From assembly GCF_001995095.2 (NCBI RefSeq), contig NZ_MTSD02000003.1:186001-250000 (forward strand): a stretch of DNA of 64,000 nt, in the 5' to 3' direction. The translations under genes were made by a program, and so were the position numbers. Source of the DNA: Oceanospirillum linum. GTDB taxonomy: Bacteria; Pseudomonadota; Gammaproteobacteria; Pseudomonadales; Halomonadaceae. How positions within the stretch are numbered: position 1 is the stretch's first letter; each line of letters opens with the position of its first letter. Below, one piece after another: positions 34,424-37,894 of this stretch. Under the pieces are notes generated by a model. It did no database searches. It saw only the letters and a program-made list of their open reading frames with translations, and had not been told where the DNA came from.

Positions 34424-35055
34424 TCCTACTTGATGCTTTGATTGAGTCCGTGTTTAACAGTATTCCGGCGCAACTGTCACTGGTAATGGATGAATCGGTA
34501 AAACGCTTTAAGTTTAAAAACGTGCATGAGCGTAAATCCCGCTACAACGATTTTGAGAACGCCATTCACTGGCTGCAGAACTGCCGTCTTGCCTTAGCCA
34601 ACTACCCGATTGAAGGCACGCCCAAGTCGCCGCTGGCGGCTTACAAAAAGGACAACAAGGTAAAGCTGTTCCTGTTTGATACCGGCCTGCTCAATCATAT
34701 GCTGGGCAGCGGCTATCGGGAGATCAAACAACAGAGCTACGAGTACAAAGGCTATATCGCGGAGAACTTTGTTCAACAGGAGCTGGCGGCTATCGGTGTT
34801 GATCCTACGTTTTCATGGAACGATGCTAGGGCGGAGATTGAGTTTATTGTCAGTAATGACGAAGGCAAGATTATCCCGATAGAAGTGAAAAGCGGCAAAA
34901 GGACACGGGCAAAATCCCTGCAGTCCTATATTCAGAAATGCTCACCGGAGAAAACCATCAAACTCACCGGAACACAGGGTTCCCCTATTACCGGGCAGAC
35001 GCATATCGTGATGCCGCTTTATTATGCGCAGTTTCTGCCGGAGCGGTGGGGGTGA
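34424..35055 (+). pseudogene. Truncated copy of the AAA+/DUF4143 ATPase
   Basis: From LIESVFNSIPAQLSLVMDES to the end this is nearly identical to the C-terminal half of the intact gene at 35796-37118. The left end keeps 18 bases of the intact gene's start (CCTACTTGATGCTTTGAT, coding LLDALI) fused in frame to the codons for ESV, so about 220 codons with the Walker motifs are gone. Similar words (GATGCTTTGAT and GATGCTACTCTGAT) at both ends of the lost segment suggest a microhomology deletion. No start codon with ribosome site remains. The C-terminal nuclease-like DUF4143 part (EIEFIVSNDE, IPIEVKSGK) is intact. Confidence 0.8.
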
Positions 35056-35652: not shown

Positions 35653-35740
35653 CACACTTTTAGGCGCATAAAAGTGTGAATTTCCGCATTTTTATGCGCA
35701 TAAAAATGTAAAAAAATTCACTTTTCAGCGCGTAAAAGTG
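35653..35740. repeat. Three palindromes with centres exactly 32 bp apart, upstream of the ATPase
   Basis: Dyad 1 is 35653-35678 (arms CACACTTTTA and TAAAAGTGTG). Dyad 2 is 35687-35708, a perfect 22-bp palindrome with core TTTTATGCGCATAAAA. Dyad 3 is 35719-35740 (arms CACTTTT and AAAAGTG, core GCGC). Their centres are at 35665.5, 35697.5 and 35729.5. The third lies where a -35 would be for a TACAAT -10 at 35751-35756. This looks like a cooperative operator array for the ATPase gene; no regulator is adjacent. Confidence 0.75.
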
Positions 35741-35750
35741 TAAGACTTGC

Positions 35751-35756
35751 TACAAT
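35751..35756 (+). promoter_or_regulatory. Candidate -10 of the ATPase gene
   Basis: TACAAT, 45 bases before the start codon. The -35 position falls inside the third palindrome and has no consensus hexamer, so a protein bound there would affect the promoter directly. Confidence 0.45.
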
Positions 35757-35795
35757 GGGCTCTGTGAACCCTTTGATTTGCAGGAGCAAACCCGT

Positions 35796-37118
35796 ATGCA
35801 GCGCGCCCTACTTGATGCTTTGATCGCATGGAAAAACCAAGCCAGCCGTAAACCTCTGCTGATTGATGGCGCCCGCCAGACCGGTAAGACCTTTCTGCTG
35901 CAGGAGCTATTTGGCAAAACCTTTGCCAATACCCTGCGTATCGACTTTCTGGAAACGCCCGCCTACAAAGAGGCCTTTGAGAGTTCGCTGAGCCCGGATG
36001 ATATTTTATTCAATCTGGAGCTGATCAGTGGTCAGAGCTTTAACCCGCAAACCGATCTGCTGATTCTGGATGAGATCGGCGAGTGCGAGCGGGCCGTCAC
36101 CTCCCTCAAGTATTTTGCCGAGAAAGCCGCCACATATTTTGTGGCTGCCAGTGGTTCCAATATCGGCCTTCTGAACACCTTTCCGGTGGGCAAGGTGCAG
36201 CAATACAACCTGCGACCGCTGAGCTTCGGTGAGTTTCTGCAGGCCGCTGATGAACCGGCCTTGCTGAAAGCTTTTAATCAACAGATGAGTTCACCTGCTG
36301 TACACAGCAAACTGATGGATAAACTTACCGATTACTTCTTTACCGGCGGTATGCCGGAAGCAGTGTCGGTTTGGTTTCAACATAAAGAGCTGGGCATTTT
36401 AGAACGGGTTGAACGGGTTAATCAGATCCACGCTGATCTGGTGGCGGGTTATCAAAGGGATTTCGGTAAGTACGCCGGAAAAGTCGATGCTACTCTGATT
36501 GAGTCGGTGTTTAACAGCATTCCGGCACAGCTGTCGCTGGTAATGGATGAATCGGTAAAACGCTTTAAGTTTAAAAACGTGCATGAGCGTAAATCCCGTT
36601 ACAACGATTTTGAGAACGCCATTCACTGGCTGCAGAACTGCCGCCTTGCCTTAGCCAACTACCCGATTGAAGGCACGCCCAAGTTGCCGCTGGCGGCTTA
36701 CAAAAAGGACAACAAGGTAAAGCTGTTTCTGTTTGATACCGGCCTGCTCAATCATATGCTGGGCAGCGGCTATCGGGAGATCAAACAACAGAGCTACGAG
36801 TACAAGGGCTATATCGCGGAGAACTTTGTTCAACAGGAGCTGGCGGCTATCGGTGTTGATCCTACGTTTTCATGGAACGATGCACGGGCGGAGATTGAGT
36901 TTATTGTCAGTAATGACGAAGGCAAGATTATCCCGATAGAAGTGAAAAGCGGCAAAAGGACACGGGCAAAATCCCTGCAGTCCTATATTCAGAAATGCTC
37001 ACCGGAGAAAACCATCAAACTCACCGGAACACAGGGTTCCCCTATTACCGGGCAGACGCATATCGTCATGCCGCTTTATTATGCGCAGTTTCTGCCGGAG
37101 AGATGGGGAGATTTCTGA
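35796..37118 (+). CDS. AAA+ ATPase with C-terminal DUF4143 domain
   Basis: 440 residues. The N-terminal ATPase has Walker A IDGARQTGKTFLLQEL near residue 24, Walker B TDLLILDEIGE near 90 and a sensor FVAASGSNIGLL. The C-terminal DUF4143 domain has a restriction-endonuclease-like core: Asp/Glu in ARAEIEFIV and IPIEVKSGKRTRAKSL. AGGAG lies nine bases before ATG 35796; an in-frame TTG at 35778 is less likely. These ATPases are common, often duplicated in a genome, and mostly uncharacterised; a role in defence or DNA handling is only a guess. A truncated copy and a remnant flank it, and three spaced palindromes lie upstream. Confidence 0.88.
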   Translation: MQRALLDALIAWKNQASRKPLLIDGARQTGKTFLLQELFGKTFANTLRIDFLETPAYKEAFESSLSPDDILFNLELISGQSFNPQTDLLILDEIGECERAVTSLKYFAEKAATYFVAASGSNIGLLNTFPVGKVQQYNLRPLSFGEFLQAADEPALLKAFNQQMSSPAVHSKLMDKLTDYFFTGGMPEAVSVWFQHKELGILERVERVNQIHADLVAGYQRDFGKYAGKVDATLIESVFNSIPAQLSLVMDESVKRFKFKNVHERKSRYNDFENAIHWLQNCRLALANYPIEGTPKLPLAAYKKDNKVKLFLFDTGLLNHMLGSGYREIKQQSYEYKGYIAENFVQQELAAIGVDPTFSWNDARAEIEFIVSNDEGKIIPIEVKSGKRTRAKSLQSYIQKCSPEKTIKLTGTQGSPITGQTHIVMPLYYAQFLPERWGDF

Positions 37119-37129
37119 AGCGTATCGGG

Positions 37130-37417
37130 TTAAGGGACTCTGGATGCCAGCTTTTTATACACCGCATCTTTATCACGTTTTCCGATTGCCAGAACGTAGA
37201 CAACGATCTCATCATCAATAACTTCATACGCCAAACGGTATCCTGCCGTACGCAGCTTAATTTTGTAAACCGCATCAAAGCCCCATAATTTGGCTGAGGG
37301 TACATGAGGGTTCGTCAGCCGCTCTTTCAGCTTCTTTTTAAACTGACTCTGAATCGGCGGTGCAAGCTTATCCCACTCCTTTTTAGCAGCCGGAAGAAAC
37401 TTAAGCCTATAGGTCAT
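37130..37417 (-). CDS. StbE/RelE family toxin
   Basis: 95 residues starting at ATG 37417 (MTYRLKFLPAAKKEWDKL). The body is typical StbE/RelE: IQSQFKKKLKERLTNPHVPS, YKIKLRTAGYRLAYEVID and VLAIGKRDKDAVYKKL. RelE-type toxins cut mRNA on the ribosome. The start overlaps the end of the antitoxin gene by 11 bases, so translation is coupled. It converges on the intact ATPase gene with 11 bases between stops. Confidence 0.88.
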   Translation of the reverse strand: MTYRLKFLPAAKKEWDKLAPPIQSQFKKKLKERLTNPHVPSAKLWGFDAVYKIKLRTAGYRLAYEVIDDEIVVYVLAIGKRDKDAVYKKLASRVP

Positions 37418-37658
37418 CGATATTGACGTCCACCGCCTCAGATAAATCACCACGGCGGCTTTCAACCAGCTTGGTCAGTTCATAATCATCCAGCTGCTCC
37501 ATAAGAAGCTCATACATATCTGCAGGCACCAGATAAGCGGTTGGCTTGTTGTGGTTTAAAATAGCGATGGCCGCGCCGTCTGCTTCGTTAAGCAACGCGG
37601 TCGGGTTTTTCTTCAGCTCAGAGATACTTGCCGAGCAATTCGCCAAAACCTGTCTCAT
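37407..37658 (-). CDS. StbD/Phd-YefM family antitoxin
   Basis: 83 residues from ATG 37658, with GAGGT six bases upstream. QVLANCSASISELKKNPTAL is the Phd/StbD DNA-binding N-terminus. The middle AIAILNHNKPTAYLVPADMY is close to StbD of plasmid R485, and the C-terminus VDVNIDDL is the toxin-wrapping tail. It should repress its own operon with the toxin as co-repressor. Confidence 0.87.
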   Translation of the reverse strand: MRQVLANCSASISELKKNPTALLNEADGAAIAILNHNKPTAYLVPADMYELLMEQLDDYELTKLVESRRGDLSEAVDVNIDDL

Positions 37659-37671
37659 AACACACCTCAAA

Positions 37672-37717: not shown

Positions 37718-37894
37718 GATAAAAGTGAAAAGCGGCAAAAGGACGCGGGCGAAATCCCTGTAGTCCTATATTCAGAAATGCACACCGGAGAAAACCATCA
37801 AACTCACCGGAACACAGAGTTCTCCCATCACCGAGCAGACGCATATCGTGATGCCGCTTTACTATGCGCAGTTTTTGCCGGAGCGGTGGGGGGT
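37718..37894 (+). pseudogene. Remnant of a third AAA+/DUF4143 copy (3' end only)
   Basis: About 59 codons matching the last part of the intact ATPase (VKSGKRTRAKSL to LPERWG). The CAG codon of the intact copy is TAG here (Leu-stop-Ser), so it cannot be translated through. Its right end is followed by repeat R3, exactly as the truncated copy is followed by R1, so the two shared this flank before divergence. Confidence 0.75.

Follow-up and report, generated by a model that had tools for sequence, protein, structure and literature searches.

Arrays of phased repeats in the promoters of PDC-S01-clade AAA_14/DUF4143 ATPase genes, with three palindromes of Oceanospirillum linum as one case

Three palindromes that precede an ATPase gene in Oceanospirillum linum are one case of a family-wide promoter array, made of two to five repeats at a pitch of 32–33 bp and placed before AAA_14/DUF4143 ATPase genes of the PDC-S01 clade. 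The array, its pitch, its place and its tie to the ATPase gene recur across phyla, and no neighbouring regulator gene is conserved at the loci that carry the palindrome. Autorepression is the probable reading (roughly 0.6): the ATPase would bind the array in front of its own gene and repress the promoter there, the -35 position of which falls in the last palindrome. As a trait of the family such arrays are apparently undescribed: no prior account of them was found in the literature searched, which was mostly open-access and had bioRxiv preprints outside its scope.

The window, i.e., the whole 64-kb stretch of DNA that was analysed, contains the following features, of which the palindromes (dyads) and the promoter and ribosome-binding signals were read directly from the sequence.

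35653–35678, no strand: dyad 1 (distal), CACACTTTTAGGCGCATAAAAGTGTG, centre 35665.5
35685–35710, no strand: dyad 2, CGCATTTTTATGCGCATAAAAATGTA, centre 35697.5
35717–35742, no strand: dyad 3 (proximal), TTCACTTTTCAGCGCGTAAAAGTGTA, centre 35729.5, over the -35 position; homologous proximal dyads lie at similar places
35751–35756, plus strand: putative -10 hexamer TACAAT, with no recognisable -35 hexamer
35782–35786, plus strand: putative ribosome-binding site AGGAG
35796–37118, plus strand: ATPase gene with AAA_14 and DUF4143 profile matches, 440 aa, a PDC-S01 phage-defence candidate; E366, E382 and K384 are nearly invariant in the C-terminal part
34425–35055, plus strand: second ATPase gene copy with an internal deletion that joins a short 5′ piece to about codon 231; its C-terminal part is 99% identical
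37719–37892, plus strand: 3′ fragment of a third copy (aa 381–438), about 90% identical
37130–37462, minus strand: ParE-like toxin gene of a type II toxin-antitoxin pair, a neighbour outside the conserved unit
37407–37670, minus strand: Phd/YefM antitoxin gene, a neighbour

The three centres and the pitch of exactly 32 bp agree with the original prediction. The common core it had proposed, TTTTA-x-GCGC-x-TAAAA, holds for dyads 1 and 2, whereas dyad 3 departs from it at one base; the cores read TTTTAGGCGCATAAAA (35658–35673), TTTTATGCGCATAAAA (35690–35705) and TTTTCAGCGCGTAAAA (35722–35737). The arms are longer than had been given, and those of dyad 1 are 92% complementary over 13 nt. Comparison with chance confirmed the dyads at the strictest threshold: TTTTANGCGCNTAAAA with at most one mismatch occurs three times in the window against 0.02 expected, and none of 100 dinucleotide shuffles reaches three. 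With up to three mismatches there are seven sites against 2.97 expected, a number equalled in 4 of 100 shuffles. In the whole genome (3.78 Mb, 98.5% complete) the pattern with at most one mismatch returns the three window dyads and two other sites, one of them within an open reading frame; there is no genome-wide excess, since 15 sites with up to two mismatches compare with 21 for a reversed control pattern.

The hexamer TACAAT is a plausible -10 element. A 17-nt spacer would set the -35 hexamer at 35728–35733 (GCGCGT), within the core of dyad 3, and it is this position that favours repression as the outcome of binding. The overlap of the last dyad with the -35 position of a TACAAT promoter, as had been proposed, stands as a matter of position; a promoter scan detected no sigma-70-like site and no consensus promoter. 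Moreover, a TAxxxT hexamer starts 21 nt past the centre of the proximal dyad in 25 of 60 homologous upstream regions, just as it does in the window. Translation likely begins at ATG 35796 and not at TTG 35778, because the homologues begin with M-Q/K/R/E/H-R.

The ATPase belongs to the AAA_14/DUF4143 proteins and to PDC-S01: it matches three PADLOC models of the latter almost end to end (E 1e-119 to 2e-88), and Pfam-type matches above the cut-off are DUF4143 (7e-24) and AAA_14 (6e-22); the NCBIfam profiles gave no match. The Walker A and B residues G25, R27, Q28, G30, K31, T32, D92 and E93 are invariant or at least 90% conserved among 32 sequences, and so are E366, E382 and K384, which we read as the residues of a PD-(D/E)XK motif with a predicted catalytic role. 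A PDB sequence search up to E 10 returned nothing matching the protein. The AlphaFold2 model is confident (pLDDT 88.7) and presents an AAA+ core, a middle region and a C-terminal alpha/beta domain, and the region of about residues 200–296 appears winged-helix-like in it. Foldseek retrieved just distant AAA+ and STAND-type ATPases, ORC/Cdc6 chains included, with low whole-chain TM; because of this distance a DNA-binding domain can be proposed for the ATPase by inference only. In the passages of PMC12988326 that bear on it, PDC-S01 is a single-gene candidate, an ATPase fused to a PD-(D/E)XK fold, ranked as the fourth most common defence across prokaryotes (29,494 bacterial and 9,986 archaeal cases), and validation is pending for most such candidates. 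The same passages are silent on promoter arrays, and the words promoter, operator and autoregulat are absent from the main text of that paper. Phage protection is a candidate function of the window ATPase.

The intact gene stands between two decayed pieces of the same gene (34425–35055 and 37719–37892), an arrangement suggestive of more than one arrival or duplication here. The O. linum genome holds no other full DUF4143 gene, its matches being the window gene and its fragments. In one genome of the phylum (G623), 17 DUF4143 matches were counted.

A scan of a collection of 84,980 species genomes for a single dyad, ACTTTTANGCGCNTAAAAGT, a pattern that includes neither gene nor spacing, returned 91 stretches. 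An ATPase start is present in 57 of them, only a 3′ remnant in four, and no remnant was detectable in the other 30 with 11 queries at E 0.05. Titles were available for 80 stretches (the remaining 11, L094–L104, were used without them), and by title reading 78 of these are named Gammaproteobacteria, the exceptions being metagenome-assembled genomes named Burkholderiales and Tateyamaria. A second dyad lies within 70 bp in 77 of the 91. When upstream regions were assembled (61 in number: the 57 scan loci, the window and three other loci, two of which repeat scan records, L008/L049 and L011/L042 being the same records, so that both this set and the spacing counts contain two repeats), at least one dyad was found within 200 bp upstream of the ATPase in 60, and the single exception ends at the edge of its locus. 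Successive dyads are spaced by 32 bp (64 times), 33 bp (10 times), 31 bp (once) and 30 bp (once). Their symmetry extends over about 11 bp per side, weakest at position 9, with the consensus CACACTTTTATGCGCATAAAAGTGTG, and the dyad is nearly uniform across many hosts. Five proteins about 50% identical to the window ATPase retain the dyad, all at 33 bp; a sixth relative at this distance (L113) has lost it and still shows a self-match peak at lag 32 (z 2.8).

Within the class, a dyad-pair pattern with a free gap of 12–24, run on 369 genomes, matched two, O. linum and one from another family, and a control pattern matched none; in the latter genome the pair, also spaced by 32 bp, lies upstream of an ATPase of this kind, whose 51 aa present on the contig are 62.7% identical. 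Within the family, the protein is matched in 5 of 151 genomes, three of them full length including O. linum, which makes the gene sporadic and accessory. Each of the two other full-length relatives (79% and 70% identical) is preceded by a pair of dyads with a 32-bp spacing; no dyad was seen at the loci of the two partial matches, the best score being 14 of 22 in one of them.

Array and gene occur together in one record each of E. coli, Acinetobacter and Vibrio, the dyads being near-perfect in the E. coli record and in the Acinetobacter plasmid record. The gene is present in 4 of 5426 E. coli genomes, all identical over a 5.9-kb query, and in one further genome the match is limited to 169 bases; a search of the 5426 for an empty site lacking the ATPase unit found none. 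The four genomes share the same 5.9-kb surroundings of the unit; in strain E14 (L105, 64283–77593) the surroundings and the next genes hold type I restriction genes, a defence-annotated MADS gene and HipA. On the Acinetobacter towneri plasmid (L228) a second AAA_14/DUF4143 gene (458–1687) lies to the left of the array unit, and between the two (1906–1985) there are two copies of CTGCCTATCCGGCAGTGAAC, which resemble pieces of a type I-F CRISPR repeat. Two protein searches of viral contigs gave one and two loci. A hairpin of about 43 nt, AGGTCTACACAAAGTTACC..GGTAACAATTTGTAGACCT with variants, is located downstream of the ATPase stop in L018, L035, L037, L051, L071, L080 and L083, in Paraglaciecola, Neiella, Shewanella and Marinomonas, and also in the flank of hipBA loci; its reading as an integron attC was dropped on the basis of the attC consensus.

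Beyond the dyad itself, a set of distant ATPase homologues was gathered from whole-genome, plasmid and viral sequences; 165 candidates yielded a tree of 124 non-redundant proteins after removal of near-identical ones. For each gene, the strongest self-match lag (15–60) was taken in the 250 bp before the conserved N-terminus, with duplicate or own-genome loci (L001–L007, L009, L154) and short or N-rich upstream regions left out. The top lag is 32 or 33 in 59 of 64 genes of clade A, to which the window ATPase belongs, against 4 of 60 in the sister clade B, so that the array trait follows the protein tree. Among clade A genes collected independently of the dyad, 29 of 34 have their peak at 32/33 (z of at least 3 in 23 genes). 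Six of the 34 have a dyad score of at least 15 (the window gene, L010, L011, L107, L111 and L119, the score of 15 in L119 being probably chance); once they are excluded, 23 of the 28 genes without the GCGC dyad still peak at 32/33, compared with 32 of 533 control upstream regions, taken from other genes (p about 6e-24). Over scan widths of 14–30 and two lag ranges the count stays between 20 and 23 of 28, compared with 21 of 560 for mononucleotide shuffles. These 28 genes do not represent 28 independent origins, because most of L117–L125 share one repeat type, and three of those that peak have z below 2. The five that do not peak at 32/33 (L110, L123, L213, L214 and L216) include the second Fusobacterium and two of the three Bacillota, and in L216 two 33-bp copies are visible by eye despite its other lag peak.

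Clade A homologues with repeats of other sequence at the same pitch come from five phyla. Named cases are Fusobacterium animalis, Collinsella, Segatella, Prevotella, Agathobacter and, more weakly, Glaesserella (z 1.1), with repeats such as TATGTGAGTATAATCACAT in a Fusobacterium, CCACATTATTCGATGGAAAAACGTGG in a Collinsella and CCCTCATAAAAGTGT in a Segatella; one proteobacterial group has the direct repeat CCTTGTGTTTTAT. Repeats in other lineages can be direct and non-palindromic. The half-site AAAAGTGT is paired at 32/33 in 5 of the 28 clade A genes, in none of 538 controls (533 in the lag test, since loci were added in between) and in none of 60 clade B genes; of four motif variants compared, the looser ones give 7–8 of 28 against 2–3 of 538. 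One branch of clade B (L132, L136, L138, L164) carries TTTACAATTGGACG repeats whose 23-bp spacing shows up as lag 46, and another small branch carries 32-bp repeats. Conservation of dyads and spacing upstream of homologues, on which the original prediction depended, is thus borne out twice: dozens of loci share the dyad, the pitch and a similar place relative to the -10 element, and homologues in other phyla have the same pitch with different sequences. A pitch that persists across five phyla while the sequence changes points to a DNA-binding mode of the ATPase's own.

The same comparison bears on whether the array could act in cis as a nucleic-acid structure (a hairpin, an attenuator or curved DNA), with no specific protein. 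The gammaproteobacterial dyads could form hairpins, to judge from their letters, but the direct repeats of other lineages are not palindromic, and the dyads, lying upstream of the -10 element, are not expected in the transcript. We regard this possibility as next to negligible.

Which protein, then, would read the array? The original prediction had found no regulator gene adjacent to it. In the window, a ParE/Phd-YefM pair does lie just downstream on the opposite strand, and yet related loci show no recurrence of such a family among their listed neighbours. At loci with the GCGC dyad, no family of open reading frames of at least 90 codons within 4 kb recurs in more than 7 of the 57 loci that have both array and ATPase, and with a lower bound of 40 codons and about 1.5 kb none is shared by more than 9 of 57, the top one being HipA-like; a 15-locus group set aside from these smaller families was the array itself read as protein. 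The simplest common factor of the array loci would accordingly be the ATPase. Among the three binders that had been envisaged, the ATPase itself fits best, since conserved regulators are missing from the neighbourhood and different ATPase clades have different repeats; a copy elsewhere fails in this genome, where the DUF4143 matches are the window gene and its fragments; and an unlinked repressor keeps some standing on account of the 30 of 91 dyad loci that lack the ATPase. If the ATPase were the binder, its presumed DNA-binding region might be expected to be selectively conserved, and this expectation was not supported: in five distant proteins with the same dyad, identity in the presumed winged-helix region (230–296) is 0.47 against 0.50 and 0.53 in the other domains, and in proteins with other repeats it is 0.24 against 0.35 and 0.29, the lowest of the three domains, a low value that proves little by itself.

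Antitoxins from adjacent toxin-antitoxin modules, HipB-like or Phd/YefM, have some claim as readers of the dyads, as antitoxins often bind palindromes and 12 of 28 ATPase-less dyad loci adjoin genes read as hipBA-like. Against it, a profile search found no HipA_C match in the O. linum genome, where a hipBA operator was rejected for this reason; HipA-like families are found in 6 and 4 of the 57 loci with array and ATPase (9 in a looser count), a minority that, with a genome devoid of HipA, led us to discard HipB as the binder; the dyad of L028 lies 223 bp before the HTH gene; and Phd/YefM is local to the window. Such antitoxins are extremely improbable readers. HipA_C was confirmed by Pfam for L028 alone, whose small partner has no Pfam match. 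HipA/HipB-like modules with one or two dyads and a common noncoding flank were observed in L028, L041, L043, L057, L079, L084, L087, L089, L093 and L227. A Xer/dif site was likewise rejected, the geometry of the dyads not fitting dif; the dyad core resembles a XerC arm.

The loci without the ATPase are an argument for another reader. For these 30 dyad stretches, 29 genomes of no stated completeness were searched, and 26 of them have no homologue at E<=1e-10; of the other three, two have only distant homologues (31–39% identity) and one has a 50% homologue with one stop in frame. In 28 of the 29 no member of the dyad-bearing subfamily was found. Dyads that stay intact in the absence of the ATPase count against it as their sole reader, because an unread dyad should decay, and a second reader in Gammaproteobacteria is possible. 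At the same time, perfect dyads were the search criterion, and recent relics are therefore over-represented among these loci. If an unlinked host protein recognised the gammaproteobacterial dyads and governed expression of the ATPase gene, other host proteins taking this part in other phyla, this would account for solo dyads persisting in such genomes, for a dyad nearly uniform across many hosts and for the lack of a conserved neighbour. Furthermore, a ParB-type reader of such a core exists, as the parS site of Burkholderia cenocepacia chromosome II, gTTTATGCGCATAAAc, contains the 14-bp core TTTATGCGCATAAA (PMC7022226). However, this would require a 32–33 bp pitch before the same gene to have arisen by convergence among unrelated host regulators of five phyla, the two other near matches in the O. 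linum genome do not look like a host regulon, and the E. coli and Acinetobacter plasmid records retain near-perfect dyads. We judge a host protein of this kind unlikely.

Dyads also often mark the places where loci cease to resemble each other. Of 554 internal ends of long alignments between dyad loci, 160 have a dyad centre no more than 25 bp away in each of the two loci, while about 1.6% of positions are that close to one, locus pairs not being independent. L036 and L059 share 95.7% identity along 3.7 kb until the proximal dyad is reached; past its edge the ATPase follows in one and 40 unrelated bases in the other before identity resumes, so that the two loci differ by the ATPase alone, from this edge to just past the ATPase stop. 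Toxin-antitoxin modules and common flanks also join at dyads in several combinations. These observations could mean that the arrays are mainly joints of gene exchange, where the ATPase, with its nuclease fold, or recombination breaks and rejoins DNA, the promoter role being secondary; the excess of alignment ends, the L036/L059 pair, and the HipA-like modules with their common flank all speak for it. Ends at the array are equally expected, nevertheless, if the array is the outer edge of a transferred unit or the sole shared stretch, the locus pairs are not independent events, and the fixed place relative to the -10 element is left unexplained. The array may be the outer edge of a moving unit, and a recombination joint would look alike; we consider exchange as the main role very unlikely.

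In viral contigs two dyad stretches were found, L225:848–890 (IMGVR_UViG_3300027752_000027) and L226:2906–2925. A T4-like phage contig without an ATPase homologue bears a perfect dyad, with a half dyad at a distance of 33 bp; its genes look like those for RegA, clamp loader and polymerase. An extension of autoregulation would see the array as a working track of the ATPase besides its operator, on which an assembly along repeats three turns apart would sense invading DNA and the nuclease-like domain would act, with joints for the exchange of defence and toxin-antitoxin modules as a result. Solo arrays would then be scars or landing sites, and the phage dyad with its half dyad (L225, L226) could be a counter-defence decoy. 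This extension is quite unlikely.

As an autoregulated gene would have them, conserved sites stand at the gene's own promoter and follow the gene, and dyads without the gene also occur; among the neighbours in the 57 loci no conserved candidate for a dedicated repressor gene of the BrxR/RptR type was found. CapW is a further repressor of a defence system, alongside those that follow. BrxR, RptR and CapK/CapS place defence genes under transcriptional control (PMC9122601, PMC9122589, PMC12255303, PMC13373217), and in those systems the regulator is a separate gene, whereas the array loci of the window type have no conserved nearby regulator gene. The parS of B. cenocepacia chromosome II (PMC7022226) matches in core sequence, its 14-bp palindromic core occurring for instance at 35691–35704 of the window; the window-type arms reach CACACTTTTATGCGCATAAAAGTGTG, successive copies keep a 32-bp phase and the site precedes an ATPase gene. 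Archaeal Orc1/Cdc6 and DnaA are AAA+ proteins that act on DNA repeats, and ORC/Cdc6 chains are among the best, if weak, Foldseek matches. The sites of AAA+ initiators can lie beside the initiator's own gene. In the window ATPase, by contrast, the C-terminal part is nuclease-like and whole-chain similarity is low, and a replication role would be analogical only.

For autoregulation by the ATPase, the succession of events could be as follows. One ATPase unit or dimer would occupy each repeat, and since the pitch is about three helical turns, the bound proteins would all lie on one DNA face, where cooperative binding may be expected. The bound ATPase would cover the -35 region and keep its own gene low and self-limited. 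Infection or another signal would draw the ATPase away and release the gene, a release that we infer to accompany defence.

The array offers a ready-made candidate binding site for each ATPase subfamily, so that the control of the PDC-S01 family, and perhaps its trigger too, becomes directly testable. Moreover, it constitutes a sequence signature by which array-only relics and phage-borne copies can be recognised.
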